This document shows, piece by piece, positions 1,740-9,376 of a DNA stretch of 64,000 bases. Numbering within the stretch: the first letter of the stretch is position 1; each line of letters begins with the position of its first letter. The stretch comes from Fibrobacter sp. UWH4 (GTDB lineage Bacteria > Fibrobacterota > Fibrobacteria > Fibrobacterales > Fibrobacteraceae): contig NZ_FRAY01000004.1 of the NCBI RefSeq assembly GCF_900142475.1, positions 186,001-250,000 on the forward strand, given 5' to 3'. The notes below the pieces were generated by a model. The model did no database searches. It worked only from the letters and a program-made list of their open reading frames with translations, and was not told where the DNA came from. The position numbers and the translations under genes were made by a program.

Positions 1740-3170
1740 ATGATCAAACACGCATCCAATTTTGTCATGGGAGGTCTTTTCCTCCTCGGAATTTCACTAA
1801 CCGCTTGCTCTGGTGAAAATGGAGCCGACGGTCGCGACGCAGATCCGGTGAACATTGACTCCCTGGCAACGGCTATCCGCAACGAGATTTCGGACAACCT
1901 CCGCGACACCCTCACCTCCATCCGCGAAGACGCAACCGGAACACTCTGGGACTCCCTCTACGCAGAACCCTACGTAGACACCGTATACAAGATTCTTTTC
2001 GACAACGCCTACGGCACCGCCTGGATGGATTCAACACGGCAATCCCTGCTAGACAGCCTCAATCAGGCTAATTACGATTCGCTCTATGCAGCTCTTTACG
2101 ATTCCGTCTATTATGACATTTACAGCCAAACCGTCACCAGGCAGCTTGATGCTTTCTCCTGGACATCCAAGGACGACATCTATTTAGCTTTCGCCAACCA
2201 ATATCCCCTGATGTATAATGGATTCGTCGGAGACAAGGGCGAACCACACCCCGTCCCCATCTCCATAAAAGTCAGAAACCAGTGCGCCGCAAGGTCGGAC
2301 AAATCCGTTCCCTGCAACTGGAAAAAGATCATGGTCAAGGCCTGGATCACCGACTGGACCGATACGGGAAGCGTCACCGGATTCGTAAATCCCGATACCG
2401 CGAACATTTTCGCCCCCGCACTAACATTTGACATGAGCAAGGCTGTCACACTGACCGCCCCTCAACAGGCCAATATCCAAATTCAGGCTTACGCCCTGGA
2501 GAACGACCACGAAATTCTGTTCTACTCCGCATCCGAGCCGACCACGCTTCACCCTGTACAAATTAACGGATGGGAACTTAAAGGCGTTCAAAATAAGAAC
2601 TGGTGGTATGGAGTTTGGGTCACCCCCAACATGGATTCCATCCCGAATATTCTGAATGACCTGAAGAAGAAACTCCCCGAAGGATCCGTAAAGATTTACC
2701 AAAAATACAGCGACGACGAAACCATCACCGAAAGTTCCAAGCGCGTTGTCAAGGCTGTCTACGAAGTCCTGCAAGCAAGAAAAATCACCTATCTCCAGAA
2801 CAATGGTGCAGGAAGTACCGGACAAAAAATAAACTACCCCATTGAAGTTCTCCGCAGCCGCGACGGTCTGTGCATCGAGACAGCCGCCCTGTTCGCCTCC
2901 GTCTTGGAAGCATTAGGAATGCAGGTTTTCATCGTTCACATTCCTGAACACGCTTTTGTTGGGTGGCGCACCGACAAAAACAGCAATACGTTGGATTTTG
3001 TCGAAACCACATTGATTGGCGGCGAATCAACGTTCTCTTACGCAAACAAGTCCGGCATAGACAAATTCAACGCACAGAAAGAAGCCGGAAACTTTGAATC
3101 CGGCGAAGCAGAACTCATCGACATCGAAGCCGTCCGCAAGTACGGCATCATGCCCAACGATATTCCGTAG
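1740..3170 (+). CDS. Lipoprotein with transglutaminase-like domain
   Basis: 476 residues. The lipoprotein signal ends in LTAC (Cys23), followed by a short collagen-like GENGADGRDA stretch and a helical region (about 40-140) rich in Asp and Ser. The C-terminal part has the transglutaminase/cysteine-protease-like core: Cys378 in RDGLCIETAA, His404 in PEHAFVGW and a downstream Asp in TLDFVETT, consistent with a Cys-His-Asp triad. Such domains hydrolyse or cross-link peptide amides; the substrate here is unknown. A TATATT box at 1710-1715 suggests a separate promoter with a leader of about 18 bases. It converges on trpCF across a shared terminator. Confidence 0.7.
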   Translation: MIKHASNFVMGGLFLLGISLTACSGENGADGRDADPVNIDSLATAIRNEISDNLRDTLTSIREDATGTLWDSLYAEPYVDTVYKILFDNAYGTAWMDSTRQSLLDSLNQANYDSLYAALYDSVYYDIYSQTVTRQLDAFSWTSKDDIYLAFANQYPLMYNGFVGDKGEPHPVPISIKVRNQCAARSDKSVPCNWKKIMVKAWITDWTDTGSVTGFVNPDTANIFAPALTFDMSKAVTLTAPQQANIQIQAYALENDHEILFYSASEPTTLHPVQINGWELKGVQNKNWWYGVWVTPNMDSIPNILNDLKKKLPEGSVKIYQKYSDDETITESSKRVVKAVYEVLQARKITYLQNNGAGSTGQKINYPIEVLRSRDGLCIETAALFASVLEALGMQVFIVHIPEHAFVGWRTDKNSNTLDFVETTLIGGESTFSYANKSGIDKFNAQKEAGNFESGEAELIDIEAVRKYGIMPNDIP

Positions 3171-3247: not shown

Positions 3248-4882
3248 CTAAAGAGAAGTCAACGCAGCGAATAGTGCTTTCAACTTTTCGCTATTTTTTA
3301 TTCCGGGAGCATCCTCGACACCGCTCGACACATCGATAAGTTCGGGGGAAAACTTGCCAACGAGTTCAGCGACATTCGTCGGGGTGATGCCACCAGCGAG
3401 CCAAAGAGGGATATCCCCCGCTTTTTCGCGGAGCAAGTTTTCGGGAATGGTCTTGCCCGTGCCGCCTGGGATTCCTTCGACTTTCGCATCCAGCAGGATG
3501 CGGGGTTCGCCGTTCTTGCGGAGGGCGGTCACCTTGTCGAAATCCGATTCTTCACCGATGCGGGCGGCGCAGTAGTAGGGAATTCCAATTTTATTTGTCC
3601 CTTCGACAAGCTCAGGGACCTTATCATCCGCCAGCTCTAGGCTCTTTGTCGGCTCGATTCCGTGAAGCTGCACCGCATCAAGCACACCTTCGCGGGCGAG
3701 CTTGATGGCGGTCTTGCCTTCGGGGGATTTCGGGTCGGTAATGACACCCACGAGAATCGGGGTTTCTGATTTGTCATTGCGAGCGGAGCGAAGCAATCTC
3801 TCCTTAAAACTGCGCACGAATTCTTCAGTGGTCAAGCGCTTCGTCGTACTGAAAACAAAACCGAGCATGTCCGCCCCGAGTTCAGCCGCAAGCATTCCGT
3901 CTTCGACACGGGTGATGCCGCAGATCTTTACGAGGGGACGGTTACGGTGCAACGGTTCTGCAAAAGGTTGGTGAGCTTGCCGAACCACACCGACCTTAAA
4001 TGGTCCTTGATTGGTACGCTGAGCCTGCCAAAGAGCTGCAAATTTTCTCCAGAAACCGCCACGAGCATTTTCGCGACCGCTTTCAAAAGCAGAAACAACA
4101 TCCTTTGCAAGCGCAGGATTTTTCGCAACCGCCTCCCCCACGAGAATTCCCGTAAAGCCAAGGCTACGCGCATAGTCGGCGTCGGCCGGCGTGTGGATAC
4201 CCGACTCAAACACAGCCTTCGCAGGAAGCTTGCTACGCACCGACGCGGGAATCAGCGGGTCGGTGTGGAACGTAGCCAGGTCGCGGGAGTTCACGCCTGC
4301 GACAATCGTTTTTGCGGCATCGGCCCCGAGCGCGCTCGTGACAACCGAAAGCTTGCGGAAGTCGTCTTTTTCACGAACTTCGACAAAAGCCTGCATATCA
4401 AACGATGCAGCACGCTTCGCCATGCGTACAAGCTGTTCGTCATCCAGAATACGGGCAATGAGGAGCACCGCGTCGGCGCCGCAACGGAATGCGACATCGA
4501 TTTCGTCTTCATAGAGCAAGAAATCCTTGCGGAGTACGGCGCAGGTATGCAACCCCTGCTTACGACGGAGTTCCATCAGGTCGGCCACCGCAATCAAGTC
4601 GCGGAGCGTTCCCTTAAAGAAATTGCCTTCGGTAAGCACCGACACCGCCTGCGCATGCGCTTCGGCATAAGTCGTCGCAAGCGCCACCGGATCCAAGTCC
4701 GGAGCGATGTCGCCTTTGGATGGCGATGCTCGCTTGACTTCGAGAATCGCACCGGCGTTCCCGAGGAATTCTGTATGACCTACGCGACGCTTTTCCGGAA
4801 TTTCGATACCGAAATTCAGACCCAGCCGCTCGATATCGGCCTTGCGCATGCGCACGATTTTTGCAAGAATATCTTCACTCAT
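3248..4882 (-). CDS. trpCF: Fused indole-3-glycerol-P synthase / PRA isomerase (TrpCF)
   Basis: About 544 residues, catalysing PRA isomerisation and then ring closure to indole-3-glycerol phosphate. The start at 4882 (MSEDIL) matches the usual TrpC N-terminus; the longer reading to 4945 only translates a repeat element. The TrpC half (1-260) has ILEVKRASPSKG, VLRKDFL and AGVNSRDL; the TrpF half begins at VKICGITR (about 315) with VQLHG and LAGGITP. Fusion of the two enzymes is common. Unusually, the linker and TrpF half carry three in-frame peptides (VRQAHQPF, LLRSARND, PELVEG) that are translations of REP-like DNA elements. It is the last gene of the trp operon in this window; trpB and trpA are not present here. 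Confidence 0.93.
   Translation of the reverse strand: MSEDILAKIVRMRKADIERLGLNFGIEIPEKRRVGHTEFLGNAGAILEVKRASPSKGDIAPDLDPVALATTYAEAHAQAVSVLTEGNFFKGTLRDLIAVADLMELRRKQGLHTCAVLRKDFLLYEDEIDVAFRCGADAVLLIARILDDEQLVRMAKRAASFDMQAFVEVREKDDFRKLSVVTSALGADAAKTIVAGVNSRDLATFHTDPLIPASVRSKLPAKAVFESGIHTPADADYARSLGFTGILVGEAVAKNPALAKDVVSAFESGRENARGGFWRKFAALWQAQRTNQGPFKVGVVRQAHQPFAEPLHRNRPLVKICGITRVEDGMLAAELGADMLGFVFSTTKRLTTEEFVRSFKERLLRSARNDKSETPILVGVITDPKSPEGKTAIKLAREGVLDAVQLHGIEPTKSLELADDKVPELVEGTNKIGIPYYCAARIGEESDFDKVTALRKNGEPRILLDAKVEGIPGGTGKTIPENLLREKAGDIPLWLAGGITPTNVAELVGKFSPELIDVSSGVEDAPGIKNSEKLKALFAALTSL
3598..3622. repeat. REP-like element inside trpCF (encodes PELVEG)
   Basis: The CTTCGACAAGCTCAGGG core is one arm of a REP-type palindrome. 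Read in frame on the minus strand it gives VPELVEG, between the third strand and helix of the TrpF barrel, near residue 420. The reading frame is intact. Confidence 0.6.
3773..3800. repeat. REP-like element inside trpCF (encodes LLRSARND)
   Basis: GTCATTGCGAG...GAAGCAATCT with a short hairpin centre, the same family as the intergenic copies at 18094 and 26967. Translated in frame as RLLRSARND near residue 362 of TrpCF, in the loop between the first helix and second strand of the TrpF barrel. Confidence 0.7.
3966..3990. repeat. REP-like element in the TrpC-TrpF linker (encodes VRQAHQPF)
   Basis: GTTGGTGAGCTTGCCGAACC is a REP-type arm. It is translated as VVRQAHQPF near residue 300, in the linker between the TrpC and TrpF domains, where an insertion would be tolerated. 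Confidence 0.55.
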
Positions 4883-4906
4883 TTTTTTGCCATTGTCATG
4901 ACCGGT

Positions 4907-4938
4907 GGATCCTATCGGCCTGCGGCCTCCAGGATGAC
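4907..4938. repeat. Intergenic REP-like palindrome, GGATCCT family
   Basis: Inner stem GGCC-TGC-GGCC within an outer ATCCT/AGGAT stem, located between trpGD and trpCF. The copy at 11757 has the same outer arms but an inner stem GGGGC-TAC-GCCCC, so the stem changes while pairing is kept. Confidence 0.75.
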
Positions 4939-4950
4939 AGGGCATCTCCT

Positions 4951-6546
4951 TTACGAATTCGTTGCAGCCTTGACTTCTTCAATCTTTTTCAGGACCGAGC
5001 CGTCTTCCATCGCCTTCATGGCCTTGTCGAAGCCTTCCTTGAGGCTGGCTGCCTTCTTGCTGATGTAAAGGGCGGCACCGGCGTTCAGGGCGCAGGCATA
5101 CTTGATGCCCGGGCGGCCCTTGCCGTTCAGCACGTCGAGAGCGAGGTTGAAGTTGTCGACACCCGTACCGCCGGCGAGGTCTTCGGGATCCACGGAGGGG
5201 ATGCCGAAGTCCTTGGGGTCGATGCGGTAAATCTTGTACTCGCCATCTTCCAAAATTTCGGCGATGGTCGTCGGCACGCAGGGTGAAATTTCGTCGTAGC
5301 CGTCGTCACTGATGGCGACCATCACGCGCTTCGCGCCGAGGGCCTTTGCCGCCTTGGTGAACGGTTCCAGCACGGTCGTGCTATAGACGCCGAGCATCAG
5401 GTACTTGGCTTCGGCCGGGTTCGTGAGGGGGCCGAGCAGGTTCATGATGGTCTTCACGCCGAGAACGCCGCGAACCGGGCCCGCAAAGCGCATGGCACTG
5501 TGGTAAACAGGCGCCATCAGGAACACGAAATTCGTCTTGTCGATGACGGAGGCAGCCTTTTCGGGAACCATGTCGAGCTTGAAGCCTGCAGCCGTGTAGA
5601 AGTCGGCAGCACCGGACTTGCTGGAAACCGCACGGTTGCCATGCTTTGCAATTTTTGCGCCACAGCTGGCGGCAATCAGGCCGGAAAGCGAACTCACGTT
5701 AAAGCTGCCCTTGCCGTCGCCACCGGTACCCACAATATCGGTGAGTTCGTCGCCGCTGTAGGGGAACTTGCGCTTCTTGCTGCTGAGTACCTTCGCGCAT
5801 CCGGCGATTTCGTCGGCAACAGGGCCCTTGCTGGAAAGTGCGGTAAGGATTGCAGCCATCTGGCGTTCGTCCATGATGCCGTCGGTCAAGTCTTCCATGA
5901 ACATTTCGGCGGTTTCGCGGCTCAAGTCCTTACCTTCGGTAAGCGTGTTCAAGATTCCGCGCACGTCAAGCGGTTCGCGACGGTAGTTGAGGAACGCCTT
6001 GAAGAATTCGTCGGCGCGGCCGCTGGCGATAGATTCCGGGTGGAACTGCACGCCTTCAATCGGGAGCGTCTTGTGGCGAATGCCCATGATGTCGCCGTCG
6101 GTAGCGCGGGCGGTCACTTCGAAGTCAGAAGAGAGCGTCGATTCGTTGATGACCAAGCTGTGGTAACGCGTGAAGATGTTCTTCTTGCCGATGGTGCGGA
6201 AGAGGCCCTTGCCGTCGAGGTCGATTTCTTCGGCGATGCCGTGCTTGATAAACTTGGCCTGCACAATCTTTGCACCAAAGGCGTAACCGATGGCCTGGTG
6301 ACCGAGGCACACGCCGAGAATCGGGAGCTTGCCAGCAAAGTGCTTGATGGCTTCGACAGAGACGCCAGCATCTTCGGGGCGACCCGGACCCGGGCTCACA
6401 ATGAGACGGCTCGGATTCAGTTTTTCGATGTCTGCAATGGTGCATTCGCGGCTACGGAGCACGCGGATTTCTTCGTTAGTGATTTTTGCCAACGCCTGAT
6501 AGACGTTGTAAGTAAAGGAATCGTAGTTGTCGATGATGATGATCAT
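4951..6546 (-). CDS. trpGD: Fused anthranilate synthase glutaminase / anthranilate PRTase (TrpGD)
   Basis: 531 residues. The N-terminal class I glutamine amidotransferase (about 1-190) supplies ammonia to TrpE: Cys80 in LGVCLGHQ, and His169 and Glu171 in GVQFHPES, form its triad, with PGPGRPEDAG before them. The rest is anthranilate phosphoribosyltransferase with the glycine loop GTGGDGKGSFNVSS and GNRAVSSKSG. The TrpG-TrpD fusion is known from enteric bacteria and others. GGAT lies before the ATG at 6546. It sits 162 bases downstream of trpE in the same direction, with a repeat cassette in the gap. Confidence 0.95.
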   Translation of the reverse strand: MIIIIDNYDSFTYNVYQALAKITNEEIRVLRSRECTIADIEKLNPSRLIVSPGPGRPEDAGVSVEAIKHFAGKLPILGVCLGHQAIGYAFGAKIVQAKFIKHGIAEEIDLDGKGLFRTIGKKNIFTRYHSLVINESTLSSDFEVTARATDGDIMGIRHKTLPIEGVQFHPESIASGRADEFFKAFLNYRREPLDVRGILNTLTEGKDLSRETAEMFMEDLTDGIMDERQMAAILTALSSKGPVADEIAGCAKVLSSKKRKFPYSGDELTDIVGTGGDGKGSFNVSSLSGLIAASCGAKIAKHGNRAVSSKSGAADFYTAAGFKLDMVPEKAASVIDKTNFVFLMAPVYHSAMRFAGPVRGVLGVKTIMNLLGPLTNPAEAKYLMLGVYSTTVLEPFTKAAKALGAKRVMVAISDDGYDEISPCVPTTIAEILEDGEYKIYRIDPKDFGIPSVDPEDLAGGTGVDNFNLALDVLNGKGRPGIKYACALNAGAALYISKKAASLKEGFDKAMKAMEDGSVLKKIEEVKAATNS

Positions 6547-6708: not shown

Positions 6709-8157
6709 CTAGTTCTCCCCCTCCAGCACAGCTCTGATTGCTCCGAGCTTTTCATTCGTTTCTTCAAATTCGCGGTCAGCATTCGAGGCCGCGACAATGC
6801 CACCACCGGCCTGCAGGCTGATGGTCTTGCCCTGCTTGAGGCAGCAACGGATAGCGATACAGAAATCCAAATCACCGTCAGATTCCATATAGCCTACCGC
6901 ACCCGCATAGAAACGACGCTTGACTTTTTCGAGGCCGGAGAGAATTTCAATCGCACTGATTTTCGGAGCACCGCTCACCGTACCAGCCGGGAAGCTAGAG
7001 CGCAGCACTTCGATGGCCTTCTTGTTCTTTGCCACACGGCCCTGCACGTCAGAGACCAGGTGAATCACGTGGCTGAACTTTTCGCATTCCATGTACTTGG
7101 TCGTTTCCACTGTACCGGCTTCGCAGACGCGGCCGAGGTCGTTACGGGCTAGGTCCACGAGCATCAGGTGTTCGGCGCGTTCCTTCGGGTCGCCCTTCAG
7201 GTTCTTCATCAGGGCTTCGTCTTCCGCGTCGTCCTTGCCGCGGCGGCGGGTACCTGCAATCGGGTGAATCGTTGCAATGCCTTCGCGCACGCGCACGAGG
7301 CTTTCGGGCGAGGCCCCGATAAACTGATGCGTGCCGTAATCGAGGAAGAACATGTACGGAGACGGGTTTACCGTGCGGAGGCGGCGGTAAATGTCAAGTG
7401 CTTCGATATCGCTTGCAAACTGGATGCGGCGGGACGGTACGGCCTGCACGATGTTGCCTGCGACAATATGCTTCTGCAAGGCTTCGACCTTTTCTACGTA
7501 TTCCTTGCGGGACTGTTCCAGGTCGGTCATGGTAATGCCCTTGCCATACTGCTGTTCCGGGGCGAGGTAGCTGAAGTCGAGGTCAGCGAGGCGGGCCTTC
7601 ACCTTTTCGATGGCAACCTTCAAGTCAATCTGGTGCTCCTCGTAGTTCAAGGCGAACAAGTGAAGCTTTTCGGTAAAATGGTCAAACACGATGTAGATGT
7701 GACCCACCAAAAATTCCGCTTCGGGGATGTTAAGTTCGTCCACCTGCGGGGCAAGGCGAATGGTATCGCAGCGGGCGCAGAATTCGTAACCGAGGTAGCC
7801 CACACCCGAAGAAGGAATAGGAATCTGGTTAGGCGGCACCGTATTTTCGGCAGAAATCAGCGTGAGGGCATCGAGAATGTCCCCTTCGCCTTCCTTGAGG
7901 AACACGCTTTCCTTGCCGTCGACAACGATGCTCACGTCCTTGTCGTTCTGGCGCAGACGGAAGCCTTCGTCTACCATCAGGGTCGAATAGCGGCTGCGAC
8001 CGTGGGAGAAACTTGCGGATTCGAAAATAGCCTTCGCACCGAGCTTCTTGCCCAGCGAAAACGGAGTGTAACGTTCACCAGGCAGTGCCACGTAGATACT
8101 GTCGGTACGGGGTTCGAAGTTAGGGCTTTCAGTGATGTGCCTTATGTTCGTTGTCAT
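6709..8157 (-). CDS. trpE: Anthranilate synthase component I (TrpE)
   Basis: 482 residues, the chorismate-using subunit, forming anthranilate with ammonia from TrpG. Family motifs are in place: FIGASPESLVRV, IAGTRRRGKDD, DLARNDLGRVC, FPAGTVSGAPKISA and QAGGGIVAASNADREFEETNEKL-type C-terminus. The start at 8157 (MTTNIRH) has AGAGGATC upstream. First structural gene of the operon; expression is probably set by the attenuator at 8339-8473. Confidence 0.95.
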   Translation of the reverse strand: MTTNIRHITESPNFEPRTDSIYVALPGERYTPFSLGKKLGAKAIFESASFSHGRSRYSTLMVDEGFRLRQNDKDVSIVVDGKESVFLKEGEGDILDALTLISAENTVPPNQIPIPSSGVGYLGYEFCARCDTIRLAPQVDELNIPEAEFLVGHIYIVFDHFTEKLHLFALNYEEHQIDLKVAIEKVKARLADLDFSYLAPEQQYGKGITMTDLEQSRKEYVEKVEALQKHIVAGNIVQAVPSRRIQFASDIEALDIYRRLRTVNPSPYMFFLDYGTHQFIGASPESLVRVREGIATIHPIAGTRRRGKDDAEDEALMKNLKGDPKERAEHLMLVDLARNDLGRVCEAGTVETTKYMECEKFSHVIHLVSDVQGRVAKNKKAIEVLRSSFPAGTVSGAPKISAIEILSGLEKVKRRFYAGAVGYMESDGDLDFCIAIRCCLKQGKTISLQAGGGIVAASNADREFEETNEKLGAIRAVLEGEN

Positions 8158-8338: not shown

Positions 8339-8425
8339 AAAGAGAAAGGCCTCCGTGAGTCCGGAAGCCTTTGCTTTAAAATCTTGGGTGATTTGCGACA
8401 AATACCGGGCTCTATGTCAGAGTCC
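8339..8425 (-). promoter_or_regulatory. trp attenuator: alternative RNA hairpins
   Basis: Four segments on the minus strand follow the classical logic. Segment 1 (8425-8419, GGACTCT) overlaps the end of the leader ORF and pairs with segment 2 (8413-8407, AGAGCCC). Segment 2 (8412-8405, GAGCCCGG) can instead pair with segment 3 (8364-8357, CCGGACTC) as antiterminator. Segment 3 also forms the terminator with segment 4. Each of the first two pairings has one mismatch. A ribosome stalled at the Trp codons would cover segment 1 and free segment 2 for the antiterminator. Confidence 0.85.
8345..8372 (-). terminator. Attenuator terminator of the trp operon
   Basis: AAAGGCTTCCG (8372-8362) pairs over 11 bases with CGGAGGCCTTT (8355-8345), with one G-U pair and a 6-base loop, then a pyrimidine-rich CTCTTT tail. 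It lies after the Trp leader ORF and about 190 bases before trpE. Confidence 0.85.
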
Positions 8426-8473
8426 GCGCCACCAACGACGGTTAAGGGTTGCACATGTCACAAAATTCATCAT
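8417..8473 (-). CDS. trpL: trp leader peptide (TrpL)
   Basis: An 18-residue ORF, MMNFVTCATLNRRWWRGL, with two adjacent TGG codons (8434-8429) three codons before the last sense codon and the stop TGA at 8419-8417 inside hairpin segment 1. Two ATG codons lie in tandem at 8473 and 8470. There is no Shine-Dalgarno sequence; a TATTTT box ends seven bases upstream, so the leader may be translated from the very 5' end of the mRNA. Tandem Trp codons are the sensor of charged tRNA-Trp in known trp attenuators. It is too short to be found by length-based gene calling. Confidence 0.85.
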   Translation of the reverse strand: MMNFVTCATLNRRWWRGL

Positions 8474-8480
8474 GGCACCA

Positions 8481-8509
8481 AAAATATCAAACGAAAATTC
8501 CCTTGGCAA
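8481..8509 (-). promoter_or_regulatory. Probable trp operon promoter
   Basis: On the minus strand TTGCCA (8509-8504) and TATTTT (8486-8481) are 17 bases apart. The predicted transcription start is at or next to the leader ATG at 8473. Confidence 0.5.
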
Positions 8510-8566: not shown

Positions 8567-9376
8567 TTACGCCTTTGAAAACCTGCTCAGGAACTGAGCC
8601 AGGCGCTCGTTGCCCGATTCGCGGAACACGTGGTCGGGAGTTCCCTGCTCCACGATGACACCGCCATCCATAAAGATGACCTTGTCGGCCACATCGCGGG
8701 CAAAAGCCATCTCGTGAGTCACGATGACCATGGTCATCTTGTCTTCGGCAAGCTTCTTGATAATCTTGAGCACTTCGCCGGTCAGTTCCGGGTCCAGCGC
8801 AGAGGTCGGCTCGTCGAAGAAAAGAATCTTCGGGTTCATCGCGAGGGCGCGGGCAATGGACACGCGCTGCTGCTGACCACCGCTGAGCTCGCAGGGGTAA
8901 GCCTTTTCCTTACCCTCAAGGCCCATGCGTTTGAGCAAGAATTGACCCTTCGCACGGGCATCTTTGCGTTCGTCTCCCAACACGCGCACCGGAGCGAGGC
9001 AAAGGTTCTGCAGCACCGTCAGGTGCGGGAACAAATTGAAGTTCTGGAACACGAGCCCCGTAGAAAGGCGAATTTCGCGAAGCGTTTTCACCGGAGCGTA
9101 CTTGACCGGAGCACCAGAGCCTAAAGGTCCCTTCGCCGAATCATTCGGCACCACCATGTCCTTGCCATTGACCTGCACAAAGCCGCCGTCAACCGTTTCG
9201 AGCTGGGTAAGGCAGCGCAACAGCGTACTCTTGCCGGAGCCGCTAGGCCCAATAATCGAGAGCACCTCGCCCGCCTTCAGGTCAAACGAGATATCCTTGA
9301 GCACATGCAAGTCGCCAAAGGACTTCTTGACGTGTTCTACCTTGAGGATCGGCGCAGATTCATTCACGTTTTCCAT
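8567..9376 (-). CDS. Polar amino-acid ABC transporter ATPase (GlnQ/HisP-like)
   Basis: About 269 residues. The ATG at 9376 is preferred because GAGG lies just upstream; a GTG at 9388 is the alternative. Walker A is GPSGSGKST, the Q-loop is VFQNFNLFPH, the signature is LSGGQQQR, Walker B is ILFFDEPTSALD and the switch His is VTHEM, all typical of amino-acid importers. An insertion of about 15 residues (PNDSAKGPLGSGAPVKYAPV) lies between Walker A and the Q-loop. Last gene of the binding protein-permease-ATPase operon; it powers uptake from the cytoplasmic face. Confidence 0.92.
   Translation of the reverse strand: MENVNESAPILKVEHVKKSFGDLHVLKDISFDLKAGEVLSIIGPSGSGKSTLLRCLTQLETVDGGFVQVNGKDMVVPNDSAKGPLGSGAPVKYAPVKTLREIRLSTGLVFQNFNLFPHLTVLQNLCLAPVRVLGDERKDARAKGQFLLKRMGLEGKEKAYPCELSGGQQQRVSIARALAMNPKILFFDEPTSALDPELTGEVLKIIKKLAEDKMTMVIVTHEMAFARDVADKVIFMDGGVIVEQGTPDHVFRESGNERLAQFLSRFSKA

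Follow-up and report, generated by a model that had tools for sequence, protein, structure and literature searches.

In Escherichia coli and Salmonella, the trp operon is preceded by trpL, a short open reading frame (ORF) with tandem UGG codons and a stop codon at region 1, which is followed by mutually exclusive 2:3 and 3:4 helices and by a terminator before trpE. A leaderless form has been described in Sinorhizobium meliloti, where the attenuated RNA (trpL/rnTrpL) begins with the trpL ATG, transcription attenuation takes place before trpE(G) and one of the three trp operons is attenuated (PMC7298713). RNA-seq of Streptomyces lividans mapped leaderless leaders for Trp, Leu and others (trpL1, leuL, alaL), among which the one for Ala, located ahead of alaS, was described as a new kind (PMC8079986). 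Work on trp attenuators of Corynebacterium and Streptomyces predicted attenuators before both trp operons of C. diphtheriae (PMC1262725). According to a survey from 2010, leader-peptide attenuators had been known only in Proteobacteria and Actinobacteria, to which Firmicutes were then added (PMC2965389). No earlier report of leader-peptide attenuation in Fibrobacterota was found in the open-access literature.

The trp locus of Fibrobacter sp. UWH4

The window, i.e., the whole stretch of 64,000 nucleotides that was analyzed, contains a trpE-trpGD-trpCF operon with the following genes:

6709-8157, minus strand: trpE, anthranilate synthase component I (TIGR00564, 477 bits, under the curated cut-off of 517.7)
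4951-6546, minus strand: trpGD, bifunctional (NF011201, 787 bits, above the cut-off)
3248-4945, minus strand: trpC-trpF fusion with IGPS and PRAI domains

Two genes on the opposite (plus) strand separate trpCF from trpB. One of them (1740-3170) partially matches the NCBIfam family "anti-phage protein ProA" and, below threshold, a transglutaminase-like family, and the other (247-1659) matched no Pfam or NCBIfam family.

Upstream of trpE, the minus-strand region 8339-8509 holds a promoter, a leader ORF, a 1:2 hairpin, a 2:3 antiterminator and a terminator, the latter lying 190 nt before trpE. With a probability of roughly 0.92, this region appears to be a ribosome-mediated trp operon attenuator of the E. 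coli trpL type on a leaderless transcript. Its elements, as read from the sequence, are:

8504-8509, minus strand: -35 hexamer TTGCCA, identical and in the matching place in most Fibrobacter leaders
8481-8486, minus strand: -10 hexamer TATTTT, with 7 nt between its end and the leader ATG
8417-8473, minus strand: leader ORF trpL, MMNFVTCATLNRRWWRGL and stop, probably leaderless
8451-8461, minus strand: segment 0, first part of the leader ORF, potential pairing partner of 8405-8395
8429-8434, minus strand: tandem Trp codons TGG TGG
8419-8425, minus strand: region 1, GGACTCT, sharing one base, the first, with the leader stop codon
8405-8413, minus strand: region 2, AGAGCCCGG, partner of region 1 or region 3
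8395-8405, minus strand: segment 2′, GTATTTGTCGC, partner of segment 0
8357-8372, minus strand: region 3, terminator 5′ arm together with the loop, of which 8364-8357 (CCGGACTC) pairs with region 2
8345-8355, minus strand: region 4, forming the 3′ arm of the terminator hairpin, with CTCTTTT (8344-8338) next to it downstream

Leader ORF and switch helices

The leader ORF comprises 18 codons, with a first ATG at 8473-8471, a second ATG at 8470-8468 and the stop codon at 8419-8417. As in trpL-type attenuators, a short ORF with tandem Trp codons precedes a trp structural gene. When the intergenic region was shuffled 20,000 times with its dinucleotides preserved, an ATG-initiated ORF with two adjacent Trp codons followed by a comparable terminator arose only twice. 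The initial annotation had listed this 18-codon leader with its TGG codons at 8434-8429, a stop codon inside the first hairpin arm and an 11-bp 3:4 terminator, all of which were found again: region 1 (8425-8419) overlaps the stop codon by one base, and the terminator (8372-8345) has 11 bp, including one G.U pair. This intrinsic terminator with its U tract (CTCTTTT) lies ahead of the first structural gene. The listed 1:2 and 2:3 pairings are likewise present, yet one mismatch in each had been omitted. The 1:2 helix (8425-8419 with 8413-8407) forms six of seven pairs with one A.C mismatch, and the 2:3 helix (8412-8405 with 8364-8357) forms seven of eight with one C.A mismatch, both mismatches being due to a single shared C in region 2 (GAGCCCGG). 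The first arm of the 1:2 hairpin would be reached by a ribosome at the leader stop, and this hairpin, found in the window, can also fold in most representatives. The 2:3 antiterminator excludes the 3:4 terminator, as is typical for trpL.

Because of these A.C mismatches, which are fixed throughout the F. succinogenes group, the switch of the window is weaker than that of its relatives. Its own 2:3 duplex energy is unexceptional compared with shuffled sequences (z -0.6). A further helix, 0:2′ (8461-8451 with 8405-8395), which was absent from the initial annotation, encloses the 1:2 hairpin in the predicted fold. Among 20 leaders with several different N-termini, 88.6% of its cells were paired, compared with 20-60% when the segments were slid against each other; covariation was weak. 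It is suggested that this 5′ helix may be part of the device; if real, it would hold region 2 off region 3 while the leader is untranslated.

From this arrangement we infer the transcription start site, translation of the leader, stalling, termination and a response to tryptophan, as well as control of the operon by charged tRNA-Trp. RNA polymerase would start at the leader AUG or within a base or two of it, so that the ribosome could initiate directly at the 5′ end and would need no Shine-Dalgarno site. With plentiful tryptophanyl-tRNA, the ribosome would pass UGG UGG, reach the stop at the end of region 1 and cover region 2, upon which regions 3 and 4 would pair and transcription would stop near 8340, some 180 nt ahead of trpE. 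With scarce tryptophanyl-tRNA, the ribosome would stall on UGG UGG and mask region 1, upon which regions 2 and 3 would pair, no terminator would form and trpE-trpGD-trpCF would be transcribed. The trpBA genes of the same genome would be controlled by a second, related attenuator.

Conservation within Fibrobacterota

Searches with TrpE in 151 related genomes and a genome collection yielded about 70 Fibrobacter-type locus records, with some genomes represented in both. A TGGTGG leader was found upstream of trpE in all of them except three (L021; L025 and L045), although this count alone is partly circular as the leaders were gathered by their TGGTGG. The three exceptional records stem from two genomes in which trpBA lies directly upstream of trpE, with trpA adjoining, and the trpE attenuator is absent; all Fibrobacter trpE loci lacking the Trp pair have trpA upstream. 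In L045, the only such locus with enough sequence, the trpB attenuator stands at the head of the united genes, of which trpB comes first. A check for conserved TGG-TGG across Fibrobacter genomes, proposed in the initial annotation, thus turned out positive, apart from the two genomes with trpA directly upstream of trpE.

Taking trpE and trpB loci together, 83 distinct leaders were obtained, each with tandem UGG codons and a terminator past the leader stop. Versions with three consecutive Trp codons occur in other genera of the family, such as MIRFTLSNRWWWRTSISEYAC (F. intestinalis, L100), MQNTISIQSFGWWWMTP (L114) and MQVQYIVNGFWWWSLS (L120), and the attenuator is also found in two members of other families of the phylum (L146, L147). 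A covariance model built from the Fibrobacter leaders gave two strong sites in the genome of the window, those of trpE and trpB, with no further convincing match. In the phylum, it matched in at least 80 of 168 genomes, all within the order, more distant leaders being beyond the reach of the model. One related genome that is 99% complete (G063) contained no trpE match, one distant trpB-like match and no attenuator; it is perhaps a tryptophan auxotroph within the genus.

The Rfam scan of the window yielded no family at gathering score, the trp leader included, and no T-box was seen in a relaxed scan. Rfam scans of the trpE and trpB leaders and of the Treponema loci described below gave no curated RNA. 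These results bear on the idea of a protein- or tRNA-binding device without a translated leader, TRAP and the T-box being the further RNA-based ways in which trp genes are known to be controlled. Since conservation is centered on the in-frame UGG codons and the switch segments, such a device is extremely improbable here.

Covariation of the stems

In a group of leaders from horse feces, region 2 has changed from GAGTCCGG to GAGTCTGG, region 3 from CCGGACTC to CCAGACTC and the opposite terminator arm from C to T, which means that the three segments move together. In the 71 leaders whose core is comparable, region 2 GAGTCCGG occurs together with CTTCCGG...CGG, GAGTCTGG accompanies CTTCCAG...TGG, and the trpB type of region 2 is found with CTTTCGG...CCGAAG. 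These matched combinations indicate that changes in regions 2, 3 and 4 track each other. For the 2:3 helix, 98.9% of the cells were paired in 12 sequences, compared with 21-57% when slid. Four cells carry a double change from C-G to U-A, which was equalled by one of 500 shuffles, and this compensatory change is matched in the opposite terminator arm. More distant leaders rebuild the 2:3 helix with unrelated sequence (ATCGGAGTCT with AGGCTCCGAT in L061; TTTGGAGCGGG with CCCGCTTCAAA in L146). The 1:2 hairpin folds in most distant leaders, but its register slips between groups, so that no covariation column by column emerges from a single alignment across them. Of the covarying stems that were to be looked for according to the initial annotation, region 2 and both terminator arms bear out the expectation.

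Promoter and probable leaderless start

The hexamers TTGCCA and TATTTT are separated by a spacer of 17 nt. When the best sigma-70-like promoter was taken for each of the 83 distinct leaders, the distance from the -10 box to the in-frame start codon was 6-8 nt in nearly all of them; the few exceptions arose where the automatic scan had settled on other hexamers or on another start codon. The geometry is also kept outside the order, in L146 (TTGACA-17-TATATT-7-ATG) and, with a GTG start, in L147. As background, seven of the 1,896 ATGs in the window exhibit it. The strict pattern TTGCCA-N16-18-TAWWTT-N5-8-ATG had only two matches in the 3.7-Mb genome, one ahead of each trp leader (trpE and trpB); the reversed genome, used as a control, had none.

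As the -10 box is placed 6-8 nt from the start codon in nearly all 83 leaders, the trpE leader ORF is very likely translated from a leaderless mRNA. The initial annotation had arrived at this idea from the TATTTT box ending 7 bases before the leader ATG. This spacing (8486-8481 and 8473-8471, respectively) is correct, and the idea itself gained strong support from the gap kept across the phylum versus the low background among window ATGs. However, the novelty of a leaderless trp leader is smaller than was supposed there, given the precedents in S. meliloti (PMC7298713) and S. lividans (PMC8079986). A more general notion, according to which all genes here are leaderless, was rejected: one of 35 long genes in the window has such a promoter geometry, and many window genes have Shine-Dalgarno-like sites.

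It might be argued that the box beside the ATG is not the true start and that an ordinary attenuator is carried on a longer 5′ UTR made from an upstream promoter. A second ATG three nt after the first and a weak GGTG before the first would indeed permit a short 5′ UTR. However, the -35/-10 pair is the sole sigma-70-like site within 5 kb, no consistent Shine-Dalgarno sequence was found before the leader ATG in the 83 leaders, and the promoter pair with its 6-8 nt gap is kept even in leaders that differ everywhere between promoter and Trp codons. A longer 5′ UTR therefore appears unlikely, and a leaderless attenuator remains the preferred reading.

A second attenuator before trpB and a probably related RNA

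A second attenuator, with the leader MKMNSAIRFNRWWWGSTK and stop, the related terminator AAAGGCTTTCGGACTCCCGAAGGCCTTT and the same promoter geometry as for trpE, precedes trpB about 9 kb away. Two elements are located there, just outside the window in the case of the attenuator:

G000:C4:185489-185641, minus strand: trpB attenuator (L152)
G000:C4:185753-185840, minus strand: conserved RNA with a three-way junction, preceding the trpB attenuator and having a promoter and a terminator of its own

Each trp transcription unit of the genome (trpE-trpGD-trpCF and trpBA) is thus preceded by one copy of the attenuator. The trpB copy was seen wherever the record of a trpB locus reaches far enough upstream (L155-L183), with the exception of L021, whose record is cut elsewhere. 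The three-way-junction RNA is conserved in L045, L155-L158, L160, L163, L164, L168, L177, L179-L181 and L183, and had no Rfam match. A model of this RNA picks up the trpB leader as well (E about 1e-11), so the RNA probably arose as a duplicate of the attenuator and lost its Trp codons.

TrpE history and the Treponema loci

The TrpE of the window groups with TrpE from rumen Treponema (57-66% identity), separately from the versions found elsewhere in the phylum and in three genomes of its own family (34-39% identity). In the tree, the Treponema TrpE lie inside the Fibrobacteraceae part with moderate support (84/82). Within Fibrobacterota, attenuators accompany both TrpE types (L120, L121, L146 and L147 versus the rest), and no tandem-Trp leader was seen in the regions upstream of Treponema trpE, which suggests that the switch was not simply inherited together with one version of the gene. 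Instead, the Treponema regions (L069-L111) exhibit repeated GTTTCTATTGACAGAAAC/GTTACTATnnATAGTAAC palindromes over the -35 box, which are probably a repressor operator replacing the attenuator.

Palindromes over the promoter without an attenuator in these homologues could be taken to mean that trpE of the window, too, is controlled otherwise, e.g., by a repressor, in which case the hairpin would simply terminate the ABC-transporter operon upstream and the ORF with its two Trp codons would be fortuitous. The transporter gene ends at 8567, just about 195 nt before the terminator. Nevertheless, the ORF, region 2 and the terminator covary and are rebuilt jointly in distant genera, and a second copy precedes trpB, which makes a plain terminator very improbable.

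Leucine- and alanine-rich leaders

A looser genome scan for the leaderless geometry gave 17 matches versus four in the reversed control, including two more short ORFs with terminators:

G000:C4:313393-313430, minus strand: Leu-rich leader, MMIKNLRLINLLGRALGANAGF and stop, with CTA/CTT codons and a terminator, before the 2-isopropylmalate synthase gene leuA (L275/L314)
G000:C2:40523-40562, plus strand: Ala-rich leader, MNKIFGQNIAAAAIVAMAASPAAARAIVGLSRETKICKA and stop, with mostly GCA codons, an antiterminator and a terminator, before a PLP-dependent aminotransferase gene (L269/L285)

The gene after the Leu-rich leader matches NF042434 above the cut-off, and this leader was found in 29 of 30 loci by automatic search and in the remaining one by eye. 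The gene after the Ala-rich leader matches NF005334, most of 30 loci have Ala-rich leaders of like type, and GGGGCTGTCC can pair with the terminator arm GGGCAGCCCC. Both are probable leader-peptide attenuators. Sensing of alanine by the second is a proposal, as its Ala-rich N-terminus also resembles a signal peptide. A his leader upstream of hisG was not seen; hisG follows directly behind another coding sequence. The chances appear about even that leaderless leader-peptide attenuation is general in Fibrobacter, with at least four leaders in one genome that would sense Trp (twice), Leu and Ala. The aminotransferase gene would then have an alanine-sensing attenuator, and the trpB leader a tandem duplicate without Trp codons that would have turned into a stand-alone structured RNA.

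Comparison with known systems

As a conserved and probably leaderless case, the Fibrobacterota attenuator illustrates the breadth of attenuator design, and the related TrpE of rumen Treponema, behind a quite different palindrome-bearing promoter region, offers a natural comparison. The leaders may also serve as ready reporters of amino-acid starvation in a cellulose-degrading rumen genus. The mechanism would be classical and its leaderless form has precedents; what appears new, and is well supported by the comparisons above, is its occurrence in Fibrobacterota.

With trpL of E. coli and Salmonella, the Fibrobacter leader shares the tandem-UGG ORF, the stop at region 1, the alternative of 2:3 and 3:4 and the terminator before trpE. 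Unlike these, it has no detectable Rfam match and is probably leaderless. In contrast to E. coli trpL, the partner of its region 2 is that half of the terminator 5′ arm which adjoins the loop, and a second copy serves a separate trpBA unit. S. meliloti likewise has a leaderless trp leader, but phylum and sequence differ, and one of its three trp operons is attenuated, whereas both trp units are preceded by attenuators in the Fibrobacter genome. Streptomyces and Fibrobacter have in common tandem-UGG leaders that are leaderless, in Fibrobacter probably so, as well as Leu- and Ala-rich leaders within one organism; however, AlaL of the actinobacterium Streptomyces precedes alaS, while the Ala-rich leader of Fibrobacter precedes a PLP-dependent aminotransferase gene.
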